From Candidatus Electrothrix aestuarii (GTDB lineage: Bacteria > Desulfobacterota > Desulfobulbia > Desulfobulbales > Desulfobulbaceae): a stretch of DNA of 64,000 nt. The notes below the pieces were generated by a model. The model was not told where the DNA came from, searched no databases, and saw only the letters and a list, made by a program, of their open reading frames with translations. Below, one piece after another: positions 10,040 through 24,373 of the stretch; position 1 is the stretch's first letter, and each line of letters opens with the position of its first letter. The stretch is from assembly GCA_032595685.2 (NCBI GenBank), contig CP159373.1, positions 393,001-457,000 of the forward strand. The letters are read 5' to 3'. Position numbers and translations under genes: made by a program.

Positions 10040-12187
10040 TTAAGAAGGAAACTCTCGGCGATAGCGCCTGTACCCGTTAATATGGCGATAGAAATCCAGG
10101 CCAAGACGACGCAGGATAATCGGAGGCCAGGTTCCCATTTCCAGGATGGCGGGGTTCTTCCGCATATTGATAAAATTACGATACCGATCTTTCAGGGTGA
10201 GATGGGTATCTGTGCAGAAGTCAGTATATTCAAAGACACCGAAATTTTCCAAATGATAAAGACGCTCAAAGAATTCTATTTCTTCATTGGTCGGAGTAAA
10301 AACCATGCGGGCATGACGGCGGGCAAACCACTCCGGGTCAGGAACAGTACAGCCTGAGCGTAAAAAGGCCTGATTCAACAGGCAGACATCTCCAAAAAAC
10401 TGCTCCTGCAAGGGCTGAATCTTCTCAGCAAAGAGCTTTCGCTCTTTAGGCAAATCCAGTGTAGCGACCAGCACTTCTTTGTTTTCAGGCTCCACAACTC
10501 CTGCCATCCCGACAGGCCCCACCCATCTCACACGCTCTCTGACTTCCCGTTGGTGGTCATCCGGCAATTGTGCAAACTGCTCTGGGGTGAAATAACCGTC
10601 CGCACTGCCGTGGGAGGCACCGAGCATCATCTCAAACAGAGAGCGATTATTATTATAGACATTAAAATGGGGGAGATGTCGGGTATTGTCGAACAGGAGA
10701 CCCTGCTTTTGATTCTTTTCCTGTGGCTCTGCTGCTCTCAAAAAGCCAGCAAAATAGCCCTGGAGAGCAACACGTCCTTCCAGGATATTATAGACATTAT
10801 CCTGAATAGAGCCCTTCCAGCCCACATCAACAATAGTCAGCCCCTCCTGTTCATAGGGGATCCCCAGAGAGTCAAGATAGACCAGGAAGTTACTCCGCTG
10901 CTGTAGCCTCCGTTCTTCGTAGACCTGCTGAAAGGAATCCGCAGCAAGCAGACGTGCAAACTCAGCGCTCCCGGCAAGATTGGGCACCCGAGCCTCATAA
11001 TCAATACCGATCTCAGCACAAAGTGAGCGGGCCAGGGACTCTTCAAAATTCAGACTCAGCAAAAAATCCCGAGGTGCTATATCTCGATAATAGGCGAACA
11101 GGCGCGCAAAATCCTCTCCTGCCAAGGGGCGCAAAGAGGCAAGGAAGGTGGCCTTGCGGGAAACCAGAAGATAATGGGAACGGATCACCCGAGAACCAAA
11201 GAGATCATCCTGCATCCGATCAAAGAGTTTTTTCAGAAACTCCCCTTCCTTGGAAAAGAAGACAACATCCTGGACTTTCTTCTCCAGTACGTTTTCCAGC
11301 AGCTTGTGGGTGAAATACCAAAGCGTTGTGCTGATCTCCTTAAACACCCCTTCCTGAGAAACAGCCTGACCAAAACGCTGCCGCACCCTGGTGGATTCGC
11401 TCAGCATCTCCGGCTTCCAGCACCGGTATAATGTCTTCTGCTGTGGGTTAACAAGATATAGAGACTGCATCCCCAGGTCATCAGGCCGTGTCACGTCGGA
11501 AGTGAGATTATCTCCGATCATCAGCATCTGCTTCGGCGTACATCCCAGCTCCGCACAGACCTTCTGATACAACCTCCCGGAGCTTTTGGCCACGCCATGA
11601 TCCGCCGAGATATAAAAATGATCAAAGTAGTTGCGAATGCCCATGCTTTCAAGCATGACGTGGAACCAGGGGCTAGGCAGATAAAAATCCGAGATGAGCA
11701 CGGTGGTCATTCCCTGATTCCGCAACCAGACAAGGACCTGGATGCTCTCCTCACAGGGCTGCTGTACTGCTCTCTCCACCACGGTTTCTATGGACAAAAT
11801 CCGTTGGGCAAAAAGGGCGGCATCTCGCAGCGGGGGGATATCTCCCAGTTCCTGCTGCAAGGCAGCACGATAGGGAGGAACAAAGGTGTGCAGATAGAAT
11901 TCCAGCTCGCCACCAGCGGCCTCGCTCTGCACACAGAGTTCTCGCTCTAACTGCTGACGCAGAGCATAGAGCTGTTCTGGGGAGATGAGATTATTCAGCA
12001 GCTGACTATGGAGCTTGGCAGCAAGCTGCTTGGTGTATTCCGGCTCAATTTCGCGGACGACCAAGGTATCGAAATAATCAAAGCAGAAATACCGGACCCC
12101 GGCATCCGCCTGTTGCAGGAGATATTCACCGACGGTCTCCGGACGGTCCTTTCCTATTGTCCAGGTAACGAGCCTATCTCTGCTCAT
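10040..12187 (-). CDS. COG5610-type HAD-superfamily protein
   Basis: A 715-residue protein. The first 250 residues are a HAD phosphatase-like domain: motif I FDYFDTLVVRE (Asp nucleophile and DxFDT variant), motif II LISDFYLP, a Lys in VAKSSGRLY, and motif IV GDNLTSDV. The remaining 460 residues, including a DVGWKGSIQDNVYN segment, resemble the C-terminal part of COG5610 predicted hydrolases, which occur in polysaccharide loci. It is the first gene of the minus-strand glycan operon. A role in glycan or glycerol-phosphate modification is inference. Its length fits the family. Confidence 0.75.
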   Translation of the reverse strand: MSRDRLVTWTIGKDRPETVGEYLLQQADAGVRYFCFDYFDTLVVREIEPEYTKQLAAKLHSQLLNNLISPEQLYALRQQLERELCVQSEAAGGELEFYLHTFVPPYRAALQQELGDIPPLRDAALFAQRILSIETVVERAVQQPCEESIQVLVWLRNQGMTTVLISDFYLPSPWFHVMLESMGIRNYFDHFYISADHGVAKSSGRLYQKVCAELGCTPKQMLMIGDNLTSDVTRPDDLGMQSLYLVNPQQKTLYRCWKPEMLSESTRVRQRFGQAVSQEGVFKEISTTLWYFTHKLLENVLEKKVQDVVFFSKEGEFLKKLFDRMQDDLFGSRVIRSHYLLVSRKATFLASLRPLAGEDFARLFAYYRDIAPRDFLLSLNFEESLARSLCAEIGIDYEARVPNLAGSAEFARLLAADSFQQVYEERRLQQRSNFLVYLDSLGIPYEQEGLTIVDVGWKGSIQDNVYNILEGRVALQGYFAGFLRAAEPQEKNQKQGLLFDNTRHLPHFNVYNNNRSLFEMMLGASHGSADGYFTPEQFAQLPDDHQREVRERVRWVGPVGMAGVVEPENKEVLVATLDLPKERKLFAEKIQPLQEQFFGDVCLLNQAFLRSGCTVPDPEWFARRHARMVFTPTNEEIEFFERLYHLENFGVFEYTDFCTDTHLTLKDRYRNFINMRKNPAILEMGTWPPIILRRLGLDFYRHINGYRRYRREFPS

Positions 12188-12300
12188 AATAAGCTCTCAC
12201 GGCTGTCACAGGCACCTTCCATACAGTCCGCTCTGCAACAGAGATTCTGCGGCGCACAAATCTTCCCCGCATGCCTCAATCCAGGCAGATACAGAGGGTT

Positions 12301-12641
12301 TCATACCAGAACTTCCCCCTTTTCCAGCACTTCTCTGGTGAAAGAGTTATCAGCTTTCATAAAATTATCCCATTCCTGCCTTGTATACACGATCAGATCC
12401 ATAGGAACCTTACGTTTTAAAAAAGTGAAATATTTTTTTACCGAAGAATAATTCGCGACTCTTTCGTCAAAATCCTTCGGTATACCGTCTTTATCCAGCA
12501 CCACGATTAAATCTATATCGCTGTCGTCGCCGACTTCTCCGTACGCATACGAACCGAACAGTACGGCTTTATACGGATTCAGCTCGGTCAGAATATTTTC
12601 AATTCAGTCAGGTAATTCCGCAACATGCTTTTATGCTCCAT
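12301..12641 (-). pseudogene. MNT-type nucleotidyltransferase, frameshifted
   Basis: Minus-strand remnant of a minimal nucleotidyltransferase. The start ATG at 12639-12641 encodes MEHKSMLRNYLTELKIF and stops; one frame over, the sequence continues as NILTELNPYKAVLFGSYAYG with the GSX10DXD catalytic motif (GSYAYG...DSDID) and runs to 12301. A single-base change near 12605 explains the break. Such proteins are usually antitoxins of HEPN partners. No intact HEPN gene precedes it, although a short WYDETHEQV-like stretch upstream could be a decayed partner. Confidence 0.65.
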
Positions 12642-12819
12642 AATATATTTCACAGAAGCTCTTTCATTTAAACCTGTTCATGCGTTTCATCATACCATGT
12701 ATCCCGGCTCTGCAAACATTATTTTTGCACCACACAGGAAAGACAGGGAGATGCTTTTGATATTAAAAAGCCCAGGCATTGCCGCGATGATCAGGGGGCA
12801 TTTTCCATAAGAGGGATAT

Positions 12820-12890
12820 TACCTGATGCGGGGAGAAGGGGCAAGGGGGATGGCCGAGAGTGCGAAGGAATGCCCTGAAACCGGGCGGTG
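12820..12890 (+). repeat. Dispersed hairpin repeat, copy 1
   Basis: Divergent member of a five-copy family with the pattern TTACCTGATG, a GGGCAAG-type box, a TGGC box and a GCCCTGAA...GGGC inverted pair. It lies directly after the hepT stop codon. Confidence 0.5.
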
Positions 12891-12892
12891 AT

Positions 12893-13210
12893 TTACTTTC
12901 CTTTTTTGTCCTCATCCTGCAACACCTTTTCAATGTTGCGTATATGCAGAAGCAGTTGCGGCAATTCTTTCTTTGCAACATCCCAGACGATATCAAGATT
13001 CACGCCGAAATACTGATGAATAAGCCGGTCTCTCATTCCGGCAAGATTTTTCGTGGCCTCTCCTATAATCTCAAGGTTTCGGCTAACGGCATCCTGTGTT
13101 TTTATATCCTCAAAGAAATCACTACTGCTCATTGTTTCAGTATAGGCAGTTATTCGCTGCAACGCCTCTCTGATATGACTCAAAAAGTCGCTGCCCGTTC
13201 TTTCAGACAT
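12893..13210 (-). CDS. hepT: HepT-like HEPN toxin (DUF86)
   Basis: A 105-residue all-helical HEPN RNase-type toxin, counted from the internal Met at 13210 (MSERTGSDF). An upstream in-frame Met at 13228 would lie deeper in mntA. The active-site/modification motif RX4HXY is present as RDRLIHQY, followed by FGVNLDIVWD. In the HepT/MntA family the motif Tyr is AMPylated by the partner nucleotidyltransferase to silence the toxin. The gene overlaps the end of mntA by 8 nt, so expression is coupled. It ends in Lys/Asp-rich residues against a dispersed repeat. Confidence 0.85.
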   Translation of the reverse strand: MSERTGSDFLSHIREALQRITAYTETMSSSDFFEDIKTQDAVSRNLEIIGEATKNLAGMRDRLIHQYFGVNLDIVWDVAKKELPQLLLHIRNIEKVLQDEDKKGK

Positions 13211-13505
13211 AAATAATGCTCCGCTCAATATCCCGGGCGATTCTTTTCACGGTTATCCTTCGTACACCTTCCAGCGTCAGAACGTCGGCCTTCTTTCCCA
13301 GAATATTCTCAAGATACTCTGTAAACTCGACGAATCGGAGACCGATCGGGCGTTCAAATTCCGCCACAAGGTCAACATCGCTTTCTTCTGTCTGCTCGCC
13401 CCTGGCATAAGAACCGAACAGGCCCAGCCTTTTTACGCCGTACTCTGCCATAAGATAGGGATATTTTCCTTGGAGAATTTCAGTAATCTTTTCTTTCGTC
13501 AGCAT
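13203..13505 (-). CDS. mntA: MntA-like minimal nucleotidyltransferase antitoxin
   Basis: A 100-residue antitoxin starting MLTKEKITEILQG at 13505, preferred over an upstream Met because it starts the family fold. It carries the GSX10DXD motif as GSYARGEQTEESDVD. In the characterised type VII HEPN/MNT systems this enzyme AMPylates the HepT Tyr. The order here is mntA then hepT, on the minus strand, with an 8-nt overlap. Bases 13274-13677, covering most of this gene and its upstream region, recur at 14354-14757. Confidence 0.85.
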   Translation of the reverse strand: MLTKEKITEILQGKYPYLMAEYGVKRLGLFGSYARGEQTEESDVDLVAEFERPIGLRFVEFTEYLENILGKKADVLTLEGVRRITVKRIARDIERSIIYV

Positions 13506-13677
13506 GATTCCGTTACAGTGTTCTATTTTTCCGTAGGATTTCCACAAAAGAATATTACCTGATGTATGCAGGCAGGGCAAGGATATGGCGGATATAAAGG
13601 CAAGACCCTGAATCGTGACGACTCAGGGCCTTGCCTGTCAACGAAGAGGAGAAAACCTATTTGTCCAACATCTCCTG
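13274..13677. repeat. 404-bp direct repeat, copy 1
   Basis: About 404 bp nearly identical to 14354-14757 (constant offset 1080, only a handful of substitutions). It covers most of mntA, its 5' region and the hairpin repeat. Between the copies sits the hicAB module. Confidence 0.9.
13556..13640 (+). repeat. Dispersed hairpin repeat, copy 2
   Basis: TTACCTGATG, GGGCAAGGAT and a 13-bp inverted pair GGCAAGACCCTGA / TCAGGGCCTTGCC around an 11-nt loop. It lies upstream of mntA, inside the 404-bp direct repeat. Confidence 0.6.
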
Positions 13678-13691
13678 TCCCGATTTTTTGT

Positions 13692-14021
13692 TCAGTTAAT
13701 AAGTCTTGAACTAACGAGTCTATTGATACTTACTCCTGACTCTGCAGCTTGTATTGCTAAATCTCTATGAACTTCCGGTGGAACACGAACCATAAATTTA
13801 CCACTGTAATTCTTTGAGGCAATTGGTCGTGGAATTTTTTCATTATTTGCTACCATATCATCAACAACAGATTTGACAGTTTTTCGAATACCTTTGAGTG
13901 CCGATTCCGGAGATGTAGCGAGCCAACTTAAGCTTGGAAACTCAGCACATAAACCGACATACTCTTCATCTTCTGCAGACCAAGTAACTCTATATGTATA
14001 ATGATCATTTTTTAACGCCAT
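13692..14021 (-). CDS. hicB: HicB-type antitoxin
   Basis: A 109-residue antitoxin. The N-terminal half has the HicB partial RNase-H-like fold (YRVTWSAEDEEYVGLCAEFP, LSWLATSPESALKGI), and the C-terminal half is a ribbon-helix-helix segment (SGKFMVRVPPEVHRDLAIQA, GVSINRLVSSRL) that would bind the operator. Its start overlaps the end of the hicA gene by 17 nt, giving the usual hicA-hicB order. The 3' end abuts the end of the 404-bp repeat, so no attC or terminator remains there. Confidence 0.88.
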   Translation of the reverse strand: MALKNDHYTYRVTWSAEDEEYVGLCAEFPSLSWLATSPESALKGIRKTVKSVVDDMVANNEKIPRPIASKNYSGKFMVRVPPEVHRDLAIQAAESGVSINRLVSSRLIN

Positions 14022-14265
14022 TTTTTACCTCCAACTTTTCAATAGCTTTCAGCACTTGCTTAACCTGGTATGCTTTTGCTTTACCTTTTTTATTCTGAAT
14101 ATTTACTCTAGGATCTCCTTGCCAAGGTGTTTTGTAGATCCGATGACTGCTACCAGATTGGCGTGCTTTACCAAAATAAAAATCACAAATTTTGCATAAA
14201 TCTGTGAACTTCACATCATTTGGATTTTTGTTAATATCAAACAGAATTTTTTCTATTTTGCTCAT
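14005..14265 (-). CDS. hicA: HicA-type mRNA interferase toxin
   Basis: An 86-residue toxin with the double-stranded-RNA-binding-like fold. The catalytic His lies in GSSHRIYKTPW, and VNIQNKKGKAKAYQVKQVLKAIEKL matches the C-terminal strand and helix. Members cleave mRNA and are neutralised by HicB. It is slightly longer than the shortest family members because of a helical N-terminus (KIEKILFDINKN, FTDLCKICDFYFG). The upstream region contains TTGACAATAGTATCAATAG, a likely promoter/operator, next to a truncated attC site at 14313. Confidence 0.88.
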   Translation of the reverse strand: MSKIEKILFDINKNPNDVKFTDLCKICDFYFGKARQSGSSHRIYKTPWQGDPRVNIQNKKGKAKAYQVKQVLKAIEKLEVKNGVKK

Positions 14266-14312
14266 GCTTAAACGATATCACTATTGATACTATTGTCAAG
14301 GTTCTTTATGAT

Positions 14313-14353
14313 GCCTAACGACCTGCATCACCAGCGGCTCACCAGAGCTTGCC
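14313..14353 (-). other. Truncated attC-like integron recombination site
   Basis: The plus strand reads GCCTAAC then a GC-rich arm with CACCAGCGGCTC. On the minus strand this ends in the core site GTTAGGC. The arm is cut off at 14354, where the 404-bp repeat starts, so only one half of the site remains. On the minus strand hicA starts about 50 nt after the core, as in a gene cassette. Confidence 0.45.
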
Positions 14354-14585
14354 GCGTCAGAACGTCGGCCTTCTTTCCCGGAATATCCTCAAGATACTCT
14401 GTAAACTCGACGAATCGGAGACCGATCAGGCGTTCAAATTCCGCCACAAGGTCAACATCGCTTTCTTCCGTCTGCTCGCCCCTGGCATAAGAACCGAACA
14501 GGCCCAGCCTTTTTACGCCGTACTCTGCCATAAGATAGGGATATTTTCCTTGGAGAATTTCAGTAATCTTTTCTTTCGTCAGCAT
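14328..14585 (-). pseudogene. Truncated duplicate of mntA
   Basis: Second copy of the MntA antitoxin, start at 14585. The first 77 residues match mntA, including GSX10DXD (differences: P to L after FER, N to D and L to P near EYLED-IPG). At 14354 the repeat ends and the reading frame runs into unrelated sequence (RQALVSRW), losing the last helices. It has no HEPN partner of its own. It could still modify HepT in trans, but is more likely a by-product of repeat duplication. Confidence 0.75.
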
Positions 14586-14757
14586 GATTCCGTTACAGTG
14601 TTCTATTTTTCCGTAGGATTTCCACAAAAGAATATTACCTGATGTATGCAGGCAGGGCAAGGATATGGCGGATATAAAGGCAAGGCCCTGAATCGTGACG
14701 ACTCAGGGTCTTGCCTGTCAACGAAGAGGAGAAAACCTATTTGTCCAACATCTCCTG
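14354..14757. repeat. 404-bp direct repeat, copy 2
   Basis: Match to 13274-13677. It carries the truncated mntA copy and leads into the 141-bp tandem repeat, with which it shares the GAAGAGGAGAAAACC start. Confidence 0.9.
14632..14720 (+). repeat. Dispersed hairpin repeat, copy 3
   Basis: As copy 2, but the two arms are GGCAAGGCCCTGA / TCAGGGTCTTGCC: the single arm differences seen in copy 2 appear on the opposite arms here. Confidence 0.6.
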
Positions 14758-15004
14758 CTCGGTATCAGCAGTGACGGAGGTCATTCGCATCTAGGGTAAA
14801 GGCGATGTCGTTGATGGGAGGTAATGCCGTAGAAGGATAAAAAATAAATCTGTCCCGATTTTTGAAGAGGAGAAAACCTATTTGTCCAACATCTCCTGCT
14901 CGGTATCAGCAGTGACGGAGGTCATTCGCATCTAGGGTAAAGGCGATGTCGTTGATGGGAGGTAATGCCGTAGAAGGATAAAAAATAAATCTGTCCCCAT
15001 TTTT
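14723..15004. repeat. 141-bp tandem repeat, two units
   Basis: Units 14723-14863 and 14864-15004 are almost identical and hold no gene. Each begins GAAGAGGAGAAAACC and ends AAATAAATCTGTCCC plus a T-run. On the minus strand this reads GGGACAGATTTATTTTT, a string common near repetitive extragenic elements in bacteria. A shortened form of the unit (internal deletion) ends the first 404-bp repeat at 13643-13690. Confidence 0.85.
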
Positions 15005-15016
15005 AGTTTTGTTGCA

Positions 15017-15090
15017 GCCTAACGTTTAAGCTCACCGGCAAATTTGAAGCGCAGCGAAAAATTTGTCCGAGTGGAGCGCATTGTTAGAGC
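15017..15090 (-). other. attC-like integron site of the restriction cassette
   Basis: A 74-bp imperfect palindrome bounded by GCCTAAC and GTTAGAG core-like sites. The inner arms CCGGCAAATTT and AAATTTGTCCG pair, as do GCTCA and TGGAGC. On the minus strand the site begins CTCTAAC right after the stop of the restriction gene and ends in GTTAGGC, which is the expected place and shape of an attC behind a cassette gene. Confidence 0.7.
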
Positions 15091-17787
15091 CTATTCTTCA
15101 ACAGTTGGCTCGTTATCGACTAAATCCGGTGTTTCCATGTCTTTACCATCTATAAGATGATCAAAGTCTTTTAATGCCTTCTTAAGCAAAATATTAGCAT
15201 CTTTCAATGATGCTCTTGAGGTTACAATGTCCGAGATAATATCTCGCTGCTGTTCTTTGCTTTCAGGAAAACAAATTTCTAACCTCTCAAAGTCAACAAC
15301 TTGCGTTCTTCTTCGATTGCTGTGTCCTGTTGTGATTGCTCTAAAAGCCCTTTGATAGTACCTACTTCTAAGTAAACAGGAGAGAAACACGGGATCAATT
15401 CGACTATCAGTAACTTCATATATTGGAAATTCTTTTGTAACAATTGCGCCATCAAATTCTTCAGGTACAACAGATATACAACCTTTCCACAAATCAATTC
15501 CAGAAAAAACAACGTCACCTGTACATGCGGAAAACCAAGTTGATGAGCTATCACCAAAATACATACCTAACCATTCAGGAGGGTTGTTTCCTTTACCTGC
15601 TTCTCTAGGTCTAATCTCACCTGTTTGTGCTAATGTCATTACAACAACTTCTTGTTCAGGGGTATTTTCGGGGTTAATTATGTTTTCCCGTTTCTTCATA
15701 ACTTGGGATATAGGTAGTCTTACCCACCCGTCTGGTACATGGCTTTGCTCTTCTTTTTTGAAGAGAAAATATTTTGGGTCCATCCTATTACTTTCATGAG
15801 ACAACCACATTTCAACAATATCAATAGCCATACAATCTGGTGAGTCAGTAGCCGTGTATAAGCCTGGATTATCTACAAATTTTAAATATTCACCATAGAT
15901 GGTTTCTTCTTGATTATCTGATAAACGACCATCCTCAACTTCTCGATATAGGTCGTTTTTATTTGAGAGTACTCCAGTTGTTGTATAACCTACAAAATTA
16001 GCCTCAGCCAAAAATACTTTATATCTTAGATTTTCCAATGCTTTTGAAATTGCTTCGCTTTCATTATTTGAACTCTCCATTTCGACTTCAAAAACTCTAT
16101 CAAATCTTGCTTTCTCTTCTCTAGTGTATTTCTTAAAGAAAAGGATAGATGTTTTATTTTGTGCTCCTGATTTTCTAAAGGCATAGTCAGGTAGAGATAT
16201 AATGGCCTCAATTCTACCGTTCTTTGCTAGATATCTACGTATTCTAGGACAGTTCGACAATTCGCCATGATTATTAAAAAAACCATCTGGTAAGATTAAG
16301 CCAAATTTTCCATTTGGTTCTAATAAGTCTACTGCTCTCTCCACTATAGCGTGCTCGGAAGGTACTTTGGTTCTACCATCTGCGATATGAAAGTTTTCAA
16401 GTGTATTACCACCTAAAAGGTCATCATCACCATCCGCAACTTCATCACCAAATGGTGGGTTACCAACAACTCGAGTAAACCTTTCTTCATAGGGTGACAA
16501 TCTTGTTAGATTAAATCTTGAATCGAGACAACTTCTGTCACCCTCAATATTTGTATGTCCATCATGATGTAGAAGGAGGTTTATCTTGCATATTCGAGCT
16601 AATATTTCATGTATTTCTATTCCAAATACTTTATGTAATGCAAAATCGTTTTTGTATCTATCTAATTCAGAACGACCTGCATAGCGTAGGTCTAGTGAAT
16701 GCCATACTTGGAGCAATACCTCCAACAAAAAGCCTCCACTACCAGCTGTTGGATCAATAACATAGTCTGTATGAGAAATGTCTAGCATTGCCACAGTAAA
16801 TCGGGCTAACTGTCGCATTGTAAAATATTGACCAAGCTCACCGCGAAATACTGAGCCGAAAAATCTTTCAAAGGCGGCACCGATACTATCAGCTGATGCA
16901 TCTGTGATACTTACATTTTGCAGTACTTTTACAACTTCTTGTATTTTTCCATCAGATAAATCTATTTTTATTCCATCTGGAAAAATTGTCCTATCGTTTT
17001 TACATGCTTGTTCAAATAAAGAATGAACTCTGGTTGCAACAGTAGCTGTAGTATCTTTACTACCTACTTGAAATCCACGAGGTTCATTATTGGGTGTAGT
17101 GCGTTCGTCTTCAACTTTTGCAAAAAGTAATTTACTCCATTGATCAAATGCTGTTAGAGGATCTCTTTTTCCTCCAGCCCATATAATTGAGTGTGCACGT
17201 TTGATTTTTGTTTCAAGTTGCTTCGCAGTTACTGGAGCAATATCATTATTTCCAGGCCCAGCAATAAAAGTAAATTCGGATACTTCACCGTATTGTTCTG
17301 GTACGACATCCCTTGTACCTTTTATATTGTCAGTTCTTTCCTCTGCTGGATAGTTCTCTATGTCGTAAAAAATTGACTCTTCATACTCTTCATAAAGAGC
17401 TAGTTCAGATCTTAGTGAATTCGAATTACCAAAAAGCTGCTCTACGCCTTGATTTTTATTAGTTTGGCTTTGACCTGAAGCTTTACATTCAACAACTATA
17501 TATGGTGTTTTGCATGCGTCATCACGATAGACAACGATGTCTGCCCAATCATTGGGGGTACGTCGAGGTACTTTAACTTCAGTTTTTATTCGATTGCTAG
17601 GGTAGCCCTTCTCTAAGACAAGGAAACTAATGCAATAAGCTCTTACCCATTCTTCAGGATCTGTCCATGTATAGCTCTTTTTTTGACGAATATTGTAGCT
17701 AATACGATCACCTCTGATTTCAATAATGCCACGAGATATCGCTTTTATAATAAATTCGTTACTTTCAGCTTCATTTCTTGAACGCAT
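15091..17787 (-). CDS. Fused restriction-methyltransferase-specificity protein (type I-like parts, type IIG-like layout)
   Basis: An 898-residue single-chain R-M candidate. Residues about 60-110 carry a PD-(D/E)xK nuclease pattern like HsdR-N (WADIVVYRDD... then IVVECKA). About 290-560 is an N6-adenine methyltransferase: GQYFTMRQLARF, DPTAGSGGFLLEVLL (AdoMet site) and NPPFGDE (catalytic NPPF). About 670-880 resembles a type I specificity target-recognition domain (YFLFKKEEQSHVPDGWVRL, FPESKEQQRDI). No helicase/translocase domain is present. The gene is AT-rich compared with its neighbours and fills a cassette-like unit between GTTAGAG and CTCTAAC. Two dyads just upstream may control it. Cleavage activity and site are unknown. 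Confidence 0.8.
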   Translation of the reverse strand: MRSRNEAESNEFIIKAISRGIIEIRGDRISYNIRQKKSYTWTDPEEWVRAYCISFLVLEKGYPSNRIKTEVKVPRRTPNDWADIVVYRDDACKTPYIVVECKASGQSQTNKNQGVEQLFGNSNSLRSELALYEEYEESIFYDIENYPAEERTDNIKGTRDVVPEQYGEVSEFTFIAGPGNNDIAPVTAKQLETKIKRAHSIIWAGGKRDPLTAFDQWSKLLFAKVEDERTTPNNEPRGFQVGSKDTTATVATRVHSLFEQACKNDRTIFPDGIKIDLSDGKIQEVVKVLQNVSITDASADSIGAAFERFFGSVFRGELGQYFTMRQLARFTVAMLDISHTDYVIDPTAGSGGFLLEVLLQVWHSLDLRYAGRSELDRYKNDFALHKVFGIEIHEILARICKINLLLHHDGHTNIEGDRSCLDSRFNLTRLSPYEERFTRVVGNPPFGDEVADGDDDLLGGNTLENFHIADGRTKVPSEHAIVERAVDLLEPNGKFGLILPDGFFNNHGELSNCPRIRRYLAKNGRIEAIISLPDYAFRKSGAQNKTSILFFKKYTREEKARFDRVFEVEMESSNNESEAISKALENLRYKVFLAEANFVGYTTTGVLSNKNDLYREVEDGRLSDNQEETIYGEYLKFVDNPGLYTATDSPDCMAIDIVEMWLSHESNRMDPKYFLFKKEEQSHVPDGWVRLPISQVMKKRENIINPENTPEQEVVVMTLAQTGEIRPREAGKGNNPPEWLGMYFGDSSSTWFSACTGDVVFSGIDLWKGCISVVPEEFDGAIVTKEFPIYEVTDSRIDPVFLSCLLRSRYYQRAFRAITTGHSNRRRTQVVDFERLEICFPESKEQQRDIISDIVTSRASLKDANILLKKALKDFDHLIDGKDMETPDLVDNEPTVEE

Positions 17788-17805
17788 AGATCCTCATTAG
17801 TTTTC

Positions 17806-17873
17806 AGAGTAGAGGACTCTAAAGTAACATTTACTCGGGAAAATGACAAGAATATATTAGAGTAGACTACTCT
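17806..17873 (-). promoter_or_regulatory. Two AGAGT-N5-ACTCT dyads upstream of the R-M gene
   Basis: AGAGTAGAGGACTCT at 17806-17820 and AGAGTAGACTACTCT at 17859-17873 share the same 15-bp dyad form and the first eight bases. They are 53 bp apart (about five turns) and start 19 nt before the start codon. They look like operators for an autoregulator or controller protein, but no controller gene is seen nearby. Confidence 0.5.
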
Positions 17874-17903
17874 GTTAATTACTTTGGACTGGTTTTTTGT
17901 GGG

Positions 17904-17995
17904 CTCTAACAGTGTTAATAAGTGGAAACTTTCCATGCTATTGACTGTAATAGTTCACGGCATTTTCCTCTTATCACGCTATACAGCGTCTAACA
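17904..17995 (-). other. Possible cassette boundary / degenerate attC
   Basis: CTCTAAC at 17904-17910 (minus: GTTAGAG) is the same core as at 15083 and would mark the 5' end of the restriction cassette. A second core-like GTCTAAC lies at 17989-17995. The sequence between does not form a clear attC stem, so the site is degenerate or only the boundary is real. Confidence 0.35.
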
Positions 17996-18005
17996 TGGAA
18001 AAGCC

Positions 18006-18389
18006 TTACCGACTCTCTCCCTCCCCCTCATCCTCCGGCTTGTTCCCGCCTTTACGCGGATGATGATTGATTTCACTCAATCGCTTACCGCCCGCCATCT
18101 CGTACTCATTACTATCCCTACCGAACTTCACCTTCACCCCGGAGAGCATCTGCGAAGACATATCGCGAAGATCCTTTTCATCCGTATCGAAGTTATTGCC
18201 CGCCGCATCAGCCTGGGCAAGTATCCCGTTATAGGTATCTTCGGATGTCTGTGTTTTGTTTATCCGGGCTTCAAAAGCCGCAACGGTGAGGCCATTGCCT
18301 AAATCCAGGTTCGGGTCGATTGCCTTGAGATTGGCGAGACGTTCAAGGGCTTCTGCGATGATGCGTGAGGATCTGCGACGAAATGCCAT
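18006..18389 (-). CDS. Hypothetical protein
   Basis: A 127-residue soluble protein that I do not recognise. A clean AGGAGG lies 7 nt before the ATG, which supports a real gene. It starts with a basic stretch (MAFRRRSSRIIAEALERL) and has a helical middle part with QTSEDTYNGILAQADAAGN. It ends in a charged tail (HHPRKGGNKPEDEGEGESR). It lies between the possible cassette boundary and the first 21-bp array, on the same strand as the other accessory genes. Nothing suggests its function. Confidence 0.65.
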   Translation of the reverse strand: MAFRRRSSRIIAEALERLANLKAIDPNLDLGNGLTVAAFEARINKTQTSEDTYNGILAQADAAGNNFDTDEKDLRDMSSQMLSGVKVKFGRDSNEYEMAGGKRLSEINHHPRKGGNKPEDEGEGESR

Positions 18390-18556
18390 GAGTGGGCCTC
18401 CTTTGGGAAGAATTATTCTTTTCAGGAAAGGGAGTTGCAGTGGAAAGTAAATAAGCTGTAAAATGTCTACTGTCTTTTGTCAATCGGAAAAAAACGTGAG
18501 CAAAGGAAATCCTGCCCGATCAGACTTCCTGAACGACAGACAACAAAGGAGCCTTG

Positions 18557-18787
18557 ATAAACAAAATTCCTTTGCTGTCTATCAAGACTCCTTCCCGGTT
18601 TAACAAAACTTCTTCCTTGGTAATCAACGTTCCTCTGTTGTTAAACAACGCTTCTTCGTTGTTTAACAAAACTCCTCCGTTGTTTATCAAGGTTCCTTCA
18701 TGGATAATCAGGACTCCTTGCTTGATAATCAACGCTTCTTCGTTGATGAGCAGGAATCCTTGGTTGTTTGATAAGACTTCGTTGACA
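18557..18787. repeat. 21-bp tandem array, 11 units
   Basis: Eleven consecutive units of exactly 21 bp, e.g. starting at 18599, 18620, 18641 and 18662. The conserved parts are a CAA near position 6, CTTCTT or CTCCTT near position 11, and a final TTG. No unit contains an indel. Because 21 is a multiple of three and the consensus lacks stops, both strands stay open and would encode seven-residue repeats: LINNGGV-like on the minus strand, LLNNASS-like on the plus strand. Whether it is translated is not known. A second array of the same type lies at 24463-24798. Confidence 0.85.
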
Positions 18788-18806
18788 GCGAACAGAACTC
18801 GCTGTC
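18784..18806. terminator. Perfect 8-bp hairpin at the end of array 1
   Basis: GACAGCGA-ACAGAAC-TCGCTGTC. It has no T-run on either side, so it may be a processing or boundary structure and not a classical terminator. It lies between the array and the gatA 3' end. Confidence 0.35.
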
Positions 18807-18866
18807 AGGCAGGACGATCTCTCTACGGGAATTTCCTCGACCTTTCTTTGAAAACCAAAACTCAGA

Positions 18867-20324
18867 TTATAACTCAGGACACTTCCCTTTCACCCCAGCC
18901 CGCAACTCCACATTCCAGGCAGCGCGCAACAGGGCCTCTTCCTGGAAATGGCTTGCCTGCAACTGCATTCCAATGGGCAGGCCATCAGCGGAGAATCCAC
19001 AGGGAACTGAAAGTCCTGGGATCCCGGCAAGGTTCGCAGAGATGGTGAGAATGTCCGAGAGGTACAGGGACAGCTGGTCTCCAGCCTTCTGACCGATCTG
19101 CCAAGCCGGGGTCGGGGCAACCGGTGAAGCAATCACATCACATTGGGTAAAGGCCTTGGCAAAATCATCCTTGATCAGGGTGCGAACCTGGGAGGCTTTT
19201 TTATAATAGGCATCATAATACCCGGCTGACAGGGCATAGGTCCCGATGAGGATACGCCGCTTCACCTCTTCACCAAAGCCCTGGGAACGAGTCTGCTTAT
19301 ACATATCAATCAGACTGTCCGCATCAAGATCGCGCATACCGTAGCGCACCCCATCAAAACGGGCCAGGTTAGAGCTGGCCTCAGCCGGGGCGATGAGGTA
19401 GTACACAGCCACGCAGTACGGGGTGTGGGGCAAGGAAACCTCGACAATCTCTGCTCCAGCCTCTTTGAGCATAGCAATACCAGCACGGACCGACTTATCC
19501 ACCTCGGGATCCAGTCCTTCCCCAAAATATTCCTTGGGAATACCCACCCGGACGCCCTGCATATCATTCTGGAGGGCAGTGGTATAATCCGGTACACCCT
19601 GTTTGATGGAGGTGGAATCACGGGCATCATGACCGGCAATGACGTTCATCATCAGGGCGCAATCCGCAACATCCTTGGTCAGCGGTCCGATCTGATCCAG
19701 CGAGGAGGCAAAGGCGATCAGCCCGTAGCGGGATACCCGACCATAGGTGGGTTTCATCCCCACAACGCCGCAAAGCGAAGAGGGCTGACGAATGGAACCA
19801 CCTGTATCTGAACCGAGCGAGCCCAGACATTCTCCAGCAGCAACCGAGGCCGCAGAGCCACCACTGGAGCCACCAGCCACATAGCCAGCCTTCCAGGGAT
19901 TTTCAGGAACACTATAGGCACAGTTTTCATTAGTGGAGCCCATTGCAAACTCATCCATGCTCACCTTACCCAGCAAGACCGCACCGGCATCACGCAGCTT
20001 CTCGACCACGGTGGCATCATAAGGGGGCACAAAGCCTTCCAGCATCTTTGAACCGCAGGTGGTGGGCATGGTCGAGGTGCAGAGTACATCCTTGACGGAG
20101 AGCGGCAGCCCGCAGAGCATCCCCCCCTGCCCTGCCTGCAATTTCTTATCCGCCTCTTGTGCGGCAGCCATTGCCTGATCCTTATGCAGGCTCAGGTAGG
20201 CCTTGACCTTGCCCTCGACCTGATCAATACGATGCAATATGGATTCGGTTAAGGCAACCGAGGTAATTTCACGCGCAAGCAGTTTGTCTTTTGCCTGTTG
20301 CAGGGTAAGGTTATATAAATCCAT
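18867..20324 (-). CDS. gatA: Asp/Glu-tRNA amidotransferase subunit A
   Basis: A 485-residue amidase-family subunit of GatCAB, which converts Glu-tRNA(Gln) or Asp-tRNA(Asn) to the amide form. The Ser-cisSer-Lys triad is visible: Lys in GLPLSVKDVLCT, and the Ser residues in GGSSGGSAASVAAGE and LGSDTGGSIRQPSS. The length is normal for GatA. gatC and gatB are not adjacent in this window. The gene is GC-richer than the accessory genes on both sides, so it looks like an original chromosomal gene surrounded by later insertions. The region 20325-20690 upstream holds no gene, only a dispersed repeat. Confidence 0.97.
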   Translation of the reverse strand: MDLYNLTLQQAKDKLLAREITSVALTESILHRIDQVEGKVKAYLSLHKDQAMAAAQEADKKLQAGQGGMLCGLPLSVKDVLCTSTMPTTCGSKMLEGFVPPYDATVVEKLRDAGAVLLGKVSMDEFAMGSTNENCAYSVPENPWKAGYVAGGSSGGSAASVAAGECLGSLGSDTGGSIRQPSSLCGVVGMKPTYGRVSRYGLIAFASSLDQIGPLTKDVADCALMMNVIAGHDARDSTSIKQGVPDYTTALQNDMQGVRVGIPKEYFGEGLDPEVDKSVRAGIAMLKEAGAEIVEVSLPHTPYCVAVYYLIAPAEASSNLARFDGVRYGMRDLDADSLIDMYKQTRSQGFGEEVKRRILIGTYALSAGYYDAYYKKASQVRTLIKDDFAKAFTQCDVIASPVAPTPAWQIGQKAGDQLSLYLSDILTISANLAGIPGLSVPCGFSADGLPIGMQLQASHFQEEALLRAAWNVELRAGVKGKCPEL

Positions 20325-21825: not shown

Positions 21826-22310
21826 CTATTTCGCAGCTTCGTTTGCCATTTTCAGAGCATGGTCAAGCAAAGCTGAACTGAAATAAATAGAGGATGCTCT
21901 CAAAATTTCGACATGGTGTTTGATGGATGGAACGATACCCTTTTTCTTCGCTTCAATCAGTACGCCGAGGCTGCCGATCACTTTGATGTTGTTTAATTTC
22001 GCAATTTTTCTCCCAAGTTTTTCATCTATCAACAGAAAGTCAGCCCCAATTTTTTTATATAAAATCATCGAACTCAACTCTCCTCTGTCCAAAGAGCCAC
22101 CCTCAATGACCAACGTGGTCGGTTCATCATCGACGACTTTTCCTTGCAGATATTTCAGGAGTTGAGCCGAACCTGATCTGTTTTTGATGGTGACCTCTTC
22201 GTATATACAGTTGCGGATACTTTAACTTCACCGAAAAGTTTTTCTAAAATATGCAGGCAATCACAGCAGGCCAAAGCTATGAGAGGAGACGCATCAGCCA
22301 CCAGTATCAT
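21826..22310 (-). pseudogene. DUF3368 (VapC/PIN-like) toxin, frameshifted
   Basis: Toxin half of a UPF0175/DUF3368 pair. From the ATG at 22310 the frame reads MILVADASPLIALACCDCLH (PIN-like first Asp). It then loses the frame near GTATATACGAAG (about 22200) and would stop at RLNS. In the next frame it continues as EEVTIKNRSGSAQLLKYLQG, through GGSLDRGE and ADFLLIDEKLGRKIA, to the normal DUF3368 end. One lost or two gained bases explain this. The ATG overlaps the antitoxin stop as ATGA. The toxin is probably inactive unless the frameshift is a sequencing error. Confidence 0.75.
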
Positions 22311-22570
22311 AATAATTCCCGATCAAGCATAGCTACTTCAGCTTCCAACTCTTCAGTGTTTTCATAGCTTTGTGGTTCAACGCCTCTTTTTTTGCATTCA
22401 TAAAGAAATTCAGCGCGGTCTATTTCTCCTATGAATTCAACGGCGGCTCCGGAAGAAATCTGTCCTGACCTATACATGTCTATGGCTGTATTCAGTTTGA
22501 GCAGTAATCTCAACTCGTCGGGGGAGCGGCTGATAGTGTATTTCTCCGGGATATTCACAGTTAATTCCAT
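22307..22570 (-). CDS. UPF0175 family antitoxin
   Basis: An 87-residue antitoxin-like protein. I start it at MELTVNIPEKY (22570), which has AGGAGC just upstream; a Met eight codons earlier is less likely. MYRSGQISSGAAVEFIGEIDRAEFLYECKKRGV is the characteristic UPF0175 helix-turn-helix-like block. It is paired with the DUF3368 gene through a 4-nt ATGA overlap. Members are thought to neutralise PIN-like toxins. Confidence 0.85.
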   Translation of the reverse strand: MELTVNIPEKYTISRSPDELRLLLKLNTAIDMYRSGQISSGAAVEFIGEIDRAEFLYECKKRGVEPQSYENTEELEAEVAMLDRELL

Positions 22571-22712
22571 TGCGGTGCTCCTGTTTTTGATCAATATGAT
22601 AACTGATATTCTATCAGTAGGATAGGCGTTACGTCAATCGGTTCCGAAGCAGCACAAAAAACGGGATAATCAAGTACCAGAAGAGTTAAAAGGTCAGCTT
22701 AGCGATGCGCAT

Positions 22713-23307: not shown

Positions 23308-23368
23308 TTCTTTTTTAGAGGTATATGAATATTTGTTTTACCTATTCGCTATATATATAGCAGCTAAC

Positions 23369-24373
23369 ATGGAACATGATAAAAGTAAACAAAAATTCCG
23401 TCCCGATCCGAGACTGAAATTGATGGAACAAGTCCATGAAGTTCTTCGCTATCATCACTATGCTTATAAGACAGAGCAGACATACAGTCAGTGGATACTC
23501 CGGTATATTCATTTTTTTGAATGTAAAATTCATCCGGCACAACTGGGTGCCCGTGATATTGAGCGATTTCTCTCTTATCTTGCTGTTGAGCGAAAAGTCT
23601 CGACATCTACCCAACGTCAGGCATTAAATGCCTTAATTTTCCTTTACCGGGATGTGCTTGACATCTCGTTGACGGAAAAGATTCAGCCAATCCGTTCAAA
23701 AAGAAAACCCAATCTGCCCACTGTCCTCGGCAAAGAAGAGATCCAACGCCTTTTTCATTATATCAATGGAACACATGCCCTGATGGCCAAATTGCTCTAT
23801 GGTTCTGGATTGCGCCTTATGGAATGTGTGCGGTTGCGTATTATGGACGTTGACTTTGACCGAAAACGAATTCATATCCTGGGGAAAGGAGAGAAGCGAA
23901 GAAGTACTATCCTTGCAGATCCTGTTGTTGAGGAACTGCAGGAGCATATTAGTCGGGTCAAGGCGCTTCATCATGCCGATCTTGAAGAAGGTTTCGGTGA
24001 AGTCTATATACCTGAGGCATTGGCGCGGAAATATCCCGCAGCTGCCAAGGAAACCCGCTGGCAGTATGTTTTTCCTTCCAGAAAACGGTCCGCTGATCCG
24101 CGCTCAGGTCAAATACGACGCCACCATGTTATGGAGTCAGGTTTACAGAAGGCTGTCAGGCGGGCGGCATCCAGAGCCGGGATTGACAAGCGGGTCACCT
24201 GTCATACCCTGCGACATAGTTTTGCCACCGCCATGCTGGAAAACGGTACGAACATCCGGGTGCTTCAGGAACTCATGGGCCATGCCGATGTGAAGACCAC
24301 TGAACGATACACCCATGTGATGGATAAAGACATCTCCCGACTGACAAGTCCACTGGAGAACTTGAACATATAA
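23369..24373 (+). CDS. intI: Integron integrase (IntI-type tyrosine recombinase)
   Basis: A 334-residue tyrosine recombinase, start chosen at MEHDKSKQKF. Catalytic residues are visible: Arg in LLYGSGLRLMECVRLR, HTLRHSF (His, Arg), GHADVKTTERYTHV (His and the Tyr nucleophile). Between the two catalytic Arg boxes lies the extra segment unique to integron integrases: EEGFGEVYIPEALARKYP, WQYVFPSRKRS and DPRSGQIRRHHVMES. These integrases recombine attI and folded attC sites to insert gene cassettes. The gene points away from the accessory genes at 12.9-23.2 kb, which is the normal divergent layout. The frame is intact, so it may be active. Confidence 0.93.
   Translation: MEHDKSKQKFRPDPRLKLMEQVHEVLRYHHYAYKTEQTYSQWILRYIHFFECKIHPAQLGARDIERFLSYLAVERKVSTSTQRQALNALIFLYRDVLDISLTEKIQPIRSKRKPNLPTVLGKEEIQRLFHYINGTHALMAKLLYGSGLRLMECVRLRIMDVDFDRKRIHILGKGEKRRSTILADPVVEELQEHISRVKALHHADLEEGFGEVYIPEALARKYPAAAKETRWQYVFPSRKRSADPRSGQIRRHHVMESGLQKAVRRAASRAGIDKRVTCHTLRHSFATAMLENGTNIRVLQELMGHADVKTTERYTHVMDKDISRLTSPLENLNI

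Follow-up and report, generated by a model that had tools for sequence, protein, structure and literature searches.

The window analysed here, 64,000 nucleotides of the genome of Candidatus Electrothrix aestuarii (contig CP159373.1, positions 393,001 to 457,000), carries a gene, P0001, for an 898-residue protein that joins nuclease, methylase and specificity parts in one chain. It is the only long open reading frame (ORF) of its segment, 15023-17909, and two AGAG-N7-CTCT palindromes, O1 and O2, bracket its likely promoter (Table 1). As the best overall explanation, we consider it quite probable that this segment is an integron cassette carrying a complete single-chain restriction-modification enzyme of the type IIB/IIG kind.

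The first-pass annotation had described one chain with type I-like parts (an HsdR-N nuclease end, an HsdM-like methylase and an HsdS-like recognition domain) and no translocase, and each of these elements was recovered. The ORF has exactly the expected boundaries and no internal stop. Pfam assigns HSDR_N_2 to residues 43-143 (E 2.1e-15) and N6_Mtase to residues 298-577 (E 5.3e-30), and none of the five Pfam matches of the chain is a helicase or translocase domain; the protein thus lacks the ATP-driven translocase of HsdR that defines type I restriction-modification systems. The recognition part (residues 640-884) matches no Pfam family at E 0.1, Methylase_S included. The PADLOC model Specificity_I (PDLC03187) covers residues 750-850 (E 1.9e-17) and is also present in 20 of 20 other members of the single-chain family, and residues 676-880 have weak phmmer matches to solved S subunits (3okg_A, E 0.0006; 5ybb_D, E 0.0007). 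By domains, motifs and fold, the protein has the type IIG layout of a nuclease and an N6 methylase in one chain with a fused recognition domain, and it resembles type IIB/IIG enzymes; its best sequence match in the Protein Data Bank (PDB) is RM.BsaXI (E 2.7e-28 over residues 35-565). With one recognition domain per chain, the working unit is probably a dimer, for which the long C-terminal helix of the model is a possible contact. Three other assignments were rejected: MADS MAD2 (NCBIfam NF047738, 181.8 bits, cut-off 720), BREX PglX (NF033452, 15.4 bits, cut-off 500) and a restriction-modification system controlled by a C protein, as the cassette has space for one gene only and none for a small helix-turn-helix controller.

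Table 1. Features of the cassette and its surroundings in the window (strand +, forward; -, reverse)
Feature	Position	Strand	Basis or remark
Integron gene cassette, 2,887 bp: leader (promoter-like hexamers, two operators), one ORF, attC	15023..17909	-	Cores and attC homology
attC recombination site	15017..15089	-	Plasmid matches; stem with extrahelical bases
5'-end core of cassette, G followed by TTAGAGCC	17902..17910	-	Core match
Single-chain nuclease-methylase-specificity protein P0001	15091..17787	-	898 aa, ATG start, no internal stop
N-terminal PD-(D/E)XK nuclease domain, residues 1-168; D83, E100, K102	17284..17787	-	HSDR_N_2, BsaXI fold match
N6-adenine methylase domain, residues 296-577 (DPTAGSGG, NPPF)	16057..16902	-	N6_Mtase; tested motif residues invariant in 21/21 rows
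Single target recognition domain, residues 688-830	15298..15726	-	PADLOC Specificity_I; S-subunit matches; conservation
Long C-terminal helix, residues 844-880, like an HsdS conserved region	15148..15258	-	Structure model
Candidate operator O1, AGAGTAGACTACTCT	17859..17873	.	86 nt before start codon; wider site AGAGTAGTCTACTCT
Candidate operator O2, AGAGTAGAGGACTCT	17806..17820	.	33 nt before start codon; wider site AGAGTCCTCTACTCT
-35-like hexamer TTGTCA	17844..17849	-	With the -10-like hexamer, 8/12 consensus positions
-10-like hexamer TACTTT	17821..17826	-	17 nt from the -35-like hexamer, directly adjoining O2
Integron integrase gene intI, divergent from cassette	23333..24373	+	TIGR02249, Phage_integrase
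hicAB (HicA-like 14005-14265, below Pfam cut-off; HicB 13692-14021)	13692..14318	-	Starts at a cassette-like core

The same annotation had seen a cassette of about 2.8 kb flanked by matching cores, and the cores delimit 2,887 bp. On the minus strand the stop codon is followed by GGCTCTAAC, a stem and AACGTTAGGC, and the complementary core GTTAGAGCC lies about 123 nt upstream of the start codon. The 9-mers GTTAGAGCC and GGCTCTAAC each occur once in the window, at 15083 and 17902, and bound the ORF; when the flanks were shuffled with their composition kept, 0.35% of trials yielded a 9-mer core match. A BLAST search of 72,556 plasmids with positions 15010-17930 returned 69 records, all at 80-90% identity. 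The best 10 of these 69 matches cover only the 3' end (15017-15087, 84.5-87.9% identity), and nine of the ten are annotated catB2; in the one record checked, pJR1, the matched DNA begins at the catB2 stop codon and extends past it. The attC assignment is based on this match and on the cores, and not on attC scans or folding: the site was missed by a strict scan and scored 24.0 in a relaxed one, where shuffled sequence reaches up to 30.0, and the stem-loop fold alone is not significant (z -1.66). The cassette nature is further backed by the integron integrase encoded in the window (TIGR02249, 425.4 bits against a cut-off of 265, at 23423-24364; also Phage_integrase). No second copy of the attC was found in the genome by BLAST, so the array is not uniform, and searches with flanking DNA gave matches of the gatA and hicAB regions and no further attC (among the best 12 of 30 and the best 12 of 115 matches). 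The two Rfam matches in 12000-19000 fall far short of the gathering scores of their models. Since gatA and small genes lie between the cassette and intI, the array looks old and rearranged, and because the site upstream of the cassette (17900-18000) resembles neither attC nor a known attI, insertion of the cassette at a secondary site is possible.

The AlphaFold2 model of the whole chain, built with 19 family rows, has a predicted local distance difference test score (pLDDT) of 81.6 and a predicted template modelling score of 0.71. Foldseek ranks three BsaXI chains first, followed by the Vibrio methylase 7eew, with the type IIG enzyme BpuSI seventh. In VIA-align, the chain aligns with BsaXI over 606 residues (Z 29.3), and the root-mean-square deviation of 15.1 indicates that the domains are shifted relative to each other; the spans covered by other enzymes are 193-883 (7eew), 4-851 (DrdV) and 186-858 (BpuSI). 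The first 190 residues, folded alone, reach a pLDDT of 85.4, with 92-97 in 13 of the 14 leading ten-residue blocks. VIA-align superimposes this nuclease-only model on the BsaXI nuclease domain at 2.5 Angstrom over 160 residues (Z 15.5) and on the HsdR fragment 3h1t with Z 10.4, and BpuSI aligns to its residues 18-175; plain Foldseek gives weak matches, the best being a Cas4 nuclease (E 0.0046). The first-pass annotation had allowed that the N-terminal segment might lack a nuclease fold and leave an orphan methylase. In view of the BsaXI and HsdR alignments this did not hold, and the segment is predicted to have the fold.

A scan of 84,980 species genomes returned 60 loci. At 17 of them a single-chain relative is complete or almost so; 16 of these relatives are intact (53-77% identity) and one, L046, is broken. 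At L087 the match (58% over residues 5-93) ends with the contig. By record, the relatives belong to Cyanobacteriota, Bacillota, Pseudomonadota, Myxococcota, Nitrospirota and Planctomycetota, an acidobacterial bin and a Thermoplasmata bin. Ciceribacter lividus DSM 25528 and Pelagibacterium limicola are among the carriers of family members. Two more (63%; L031:2046-4772 and L032:4983-7706) were found in IMG/VR between phage terminase and portal genes identified with Pfam, and one (48%; L029:5752-8607) in a plasmid collection, on a Collinsella gut megaplasmid. A ParE-like gene lies immediately upstream of the relative in L032, with a similar ORF in L031, and the relative in L029 directly follows a RelB/DinJ antitoxin gene, with transposase genes around. 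Among 257 genomes searched from the class to which the window belongs, only the window's genome has a full member at E 1e-60, and two others gave matches of 34-37% over residues up to 560.

The remaining loci of the large scan are 27-37% relatives, and among those examined a fused recognition domain was not found. Of the 26 outer relatives with a chain of 640-780 aa, 21 are directly followed by an ORF of 300 aa or more, and all 21 ORFs match Methylase_S. The nearest row of the window protein on the tree is L033, from the cyanobacterium Vasconcelosia minhoensis (77% identity, support 100/100). Its gene likewise forms a cassette, with GTTCTAAC right after the stop codon and GTTAGAAC upstream; an attC-like stem and a GNAT gene precede the cassette, and a stop-broken integrase gene lies about 1 kb away. 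The cassette core pair was absent from the other 19 loci tested. L046 was excluded from alignments A3-A5 and from the pair statistics, L029 from the structure alignments, and L032, which is close to L031, from the identity-matched test below; in the count of upstream operators L093 takes the place of L032.

Recognition domains usually change fast. In this family, mean identity over 190 pairs is 69.4% for the methylase, 67.4% for the recognition part and 59.3% for the nuclease. As a control, we used the S subunits of the sister two-gene enzymes, i.e. the 21 adjacent ORFs described above. For pairs with 55-65% enzyme identity, recognition identity averages 69.1% in the single-chain family (n=102 pairs, minimum 56.6) against 32.3% in the control (n=65, maximum 47.1), and for pairs with 65-75% enzyme identity 71.1% (n=28, minimum 65.7) against 33.6% (n=32, maximum 51.1); the two ranges are also disjoint in the 45-55% and 75-90% bins. 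The control compares whole two-domain S proteins and is an imperfect match to a single recognition domain. A recognition domain as conserved as the methylase suggests that the single-chain family keeps one frozen DNA target.

The palindromes of the window have counterparts in other lineages. Both cyanobacteria have a similar pair of sites, at -87/-31 (the second with one core mismatch) and at -84/-28. Four loci of Clostridia have one site at -31, and a fifth has a degenerate one. The three Alphaproteobacteria have one site at -206 of the chosen start codon, about -62 of the likelier start; a second site of theirs (-82; L039, L040, L085) was set aside, as the reading frame continues through it and the gene probably starts 144 nt further upstream. 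The exact palindrome was found within 300 nt upstream of the gene in 10 of 21 loci. Its strict form AGAGYRNNNYRCTCT (AGAGYRN3YRCTCT) has 10 sites in 6.2 kb of upstream sequence and none in the other 307 kb; without the probably coding copy of L040, the upstream sites number nine for the strict form and 12 instead of 13 for the loose form. A scan of 3,328 palindromes, blind to the motif and run on 13 hand-picked representatives (one per group), placed AGAG-N7-CTCT first by number of loci (5/13); the next three were shifted readings of it, and unrelated motifs reached two loci. By enrichment it ranked third, behind two shifted readings of itself. We did not find the motif, in several spellings, in the literature searched.

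In eight loci (the window, L033, L034, L035-L038 and L047), a -10-like hexamer precedes the site nearest to the gene with a gap of 0-3 nt, so a bound protein would cover the transcription start. The stretch from O1 to the -10-like hexamer shares only 9-14 of 38 positions pairwise among the window, L033, L034 and L035; by this comparison, the promoters have diverged around a kept palindrome.

The sites were also counted genome-wide in eight genomes chosen for carrying the operator, with positions matched to contig ranges by hand. The long form TTYAGAGYRNNNYRCTCTRAA (TTYAGAGYRN3YRCTCTRAA), with at most one mismatch, has 12 sites, 11 of them just upstream of the enzyme gene, one of these probably inside an extended reading frame. 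The twelfth, possibly a chance occurrence, lies in Nostoc (G258:C13:14277-14297, L106), 15 nt before a gene of the WecG/TagA glycosyltransferase family. In IMG/VR, TCAGAGTANNNTACTCTGA occurs in five contig stretches, none with the enzyme gene, a number not above chance by our estimate. Comparison of neighbouring ORFs within about 6 kb gave eight cross-lineage pairs, which comprise the integrase (window and L033), CinA (L033 and both L035 and L036) and a pair of IS21-like transposase genes (L029 and L048); no regulator is among them.

What accompanies the site across lineages is the enzyme itself, which makes it the candidate reader of AGAG-N7-CTCT. Type IIB targets are described as two halves of 2-4 bp, 5-7 bases apart (PMC11997821). 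The palindrome fits this rule, and it has an adenine in each half, on opposite strands, which is what reading by two copies of one domain would require. That AGAG-N7-CTCT is the target of the enzyme, and that the bound enzyme represses its own promoter, appears to us about evenly balanced. More tentatively, and somewhat short of an even chance, we propose that the frozen recognition domain reads the palindrome both as target and as its own operator, which would make the gene a self-controlled, single-target unit that moves via integrons, phages and plasmids. In the main reading, whichever sequence is the target, two chains would pair through their C-terminal helices, and the two copies of the recognition domain would read a two-part palindrome. 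In the host, an adenine in each half would be methylated, and unmethylated incoming DNA would be cut at a set distance from the site. If the target is AGAG-N7-CTCT, the enzyme bound to it over its own promoter would repress transcription, so that the cassette would bring its own expression control and could function after reaching an unrelated host. A change of target would break the enzyme's own switch, and this coupling could help to hold the recognition domain from drift.

Several observations weigh against these proposals. The operator is absent from 11 of the 21 loci (L038 has a degenerate copy and L046 a broken gene), and as the intact loci among them keep the recognition domain, the coupling between this domain and the operator is not strict. 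On the tree, the rows with an operator fall into three groups, and near-identical loci (L035/L047, L039/L085) inflate the raw counts. The motif was first noticed in the window, L033 and L034 and tested afterwards. The conserved palindrome, approximately TTTYAGAGYRN3YRCTCTRAA, exceeds the usual length of a target of such enzymes and has more the look of a repressor site. Within the window alone, the number of sites is unremarkable (three with at most one mismatch, 1.37 expected). The 15-mer core is not private to the gene, with 49 sites against 54 of the reversed pattern in 16 family genomes and six against three in the genome of the window; at up to two mismatches, the long form has 35 sites against 17 of the reversed control in the eight genomes. 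A rival promoter-like pair, TTAACA-16-TATATT, encloses O1 and matches 10/12 consensus positions, more than the pair that abuts O2 (8/12), and the promoter scores are without a control. With either choice, an operator overlaps the likely promoter.

Some of these observations fit an ordinary single-chain type IIG/IIB enzyme in a cassette, with a host transcription factor bound to the operators and the enzyme reading another sequence, an explanation we regard as quite possible without favouring it. Long palindromes flanked by TTTC and GAAA are typical of dimeric repressors, roughly half of the loci have no operator, and some restriction-modification systems are described as controlled by separate C proteins (PMC6237814). 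A host factor would however have to account for the same operator in cyanobacteria, Clostridia, Alphaproteobacteria and the window, with no common regulator among the neighbouring ORFs compared, and the near-privacy of the long form to the enzyme gene (11 of 12 sites) is unexpected for a general host regulator. Less likely, in our view, is that the recognition domain is conserved by structural constraint, such as fusion, folding or a dimer contact, and not by retention of a target. Fusion may add contacts, the members stem from few and possibly recent transfers, and the control consists of two-domain proteins; against this, control and family were compared at equal enzyme identity and their ranges stay apart in each of the four bins between 45 and 90%, and single-chain type IIG enzymes generally vary their targets. 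It is improbable that the protein works as a solitary methylase or regulator with a silent nuclease: the nuclease is indeed the least conserved part (59% mean identity, compared with 69% in the methylase and 67% in the recognition part), but all 21 of 21 family rows have D83, E100, K102 and Q117 unchanged, D83 and E100 are kept in 32 and K102 in 31 of 33 outer relatives, and the predicted fold follows the BsaXI nuclease at 2.5 Angstrom. We give very little credence to a chromosomal gene beside an old integron, for which gatA standing between the gene and intI, the upstream site unlike attC, and the non-significant stem-loop (z -1.66) and naive attC scan could be cited, since the 3' end matches catB2 attC sites at 84.5-88%, the core is repeated precisely at the opposite end, and the cyanobacterial relative adjoins an integrase and has cores of its own.

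The kind of enzyme is already known; the novelty lies in the fixed recognition domain and the conserved operator, which lead to a sharp prediction. The type IIG enzymes BpuSI (3s1s) and DrdV (7lo5) are single chains with one recognition domain, differing from the window chain in sequence (about 11-17% identity in fold alignments), and we know of no conserved promoter operator for either. Integron cassettes with defence or restriction-modification genes exist, and the cassette of the window is likewise a mobile defence gene bounded by attC; it differs in its own promoter-like hexamers, operator pair and 898-residue enzyme. Related recognition domains of known specificity include those of EcoAI and EcoEI, which read GAG.

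The nearest solved relative is the type IIB enzyme RM.BsaXI (PDB 8w0p, 8w2p, 8w2q; PMC11997821), with nuclease, connector and methylase in the same order; BsaXI carries its two recognition domains on a separate S subunit and reads an asymmetric site, whereas the window chain has one fused domain. The same report models 16 type IIB enzymes, eight of them encoded as a restriction-modification chain plus S subunit, and covers single-chain type IIB and type IIG enzymes that combine nuclease, methylase and specificity in one chain like the window protein (PMC11997821). Of the single-chain type IIB enzymes, all but RdeGBIII are given there as having two target recognition domains (TRD) and two conserved regions (CR) in the order TRD1-CR1-TRD2-CR2 (PMC11997821), whereas the window chain has one recognition domain and one long helix. 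Regulation of its own system by a modification enzyme has a parallel in M.SsoII, a methylase reported to control the promoter of its system (PMC6100179); the reader in the window would differ in being an HsdS-like recognition domain, possibly acting on the enzyme's own target. By titles and openings of abstracts, none of the literature found on type IIG autoregulation and related topics describes the single-chain family.

A mobile restriction enzyme must not cut a new host before its DNA is protected. Two-gene systems often rely on a separate controller protein, and to our knowledge it is largely open how one-chain enzymes manage such timing. Where a single recognition domain and an operator are both conserved, as in this family, the question can be put to a direct test, and a recognition sequence is predicted from promoter conservation alone. 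The present case also places a large defence cassette with an apparent promoter of its own in the integrons of two hosts, the window's bacterium and a cyanobacterium, and relatives of its enzyme in phage genomes and a gut megaplasmid.

Other features of the window lie on both sides of the cassette. No attC of its own was seen for hicAB. An MntA-like nucleotidyltransferase gene is present twice (13203-13580 and 14328-14660; 98% identity over 300 nt, spacing 1,080), the second copy truncated at the cassette-like junction beside hicAB, and a HepT-like gene follows the intact copy. The duplicated segment includes two copies of a 39-nt hairpin (13598-13636 and 14678-14716) that are 92% complementary to each other. 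A 141-bp unit forms a tandem duplicate (99%) at 14723-15004, with partial copies at 13643-13688 and ends that read CTGTCCCGATTTTT. A run of degenerate 21-bp repeats at 18552-18782 adjoins gatA, and UPF0175 and DUF3368 genes at 21826-22594, toxin-antitoxin-like by our reading, are located near the integron integrase gene.

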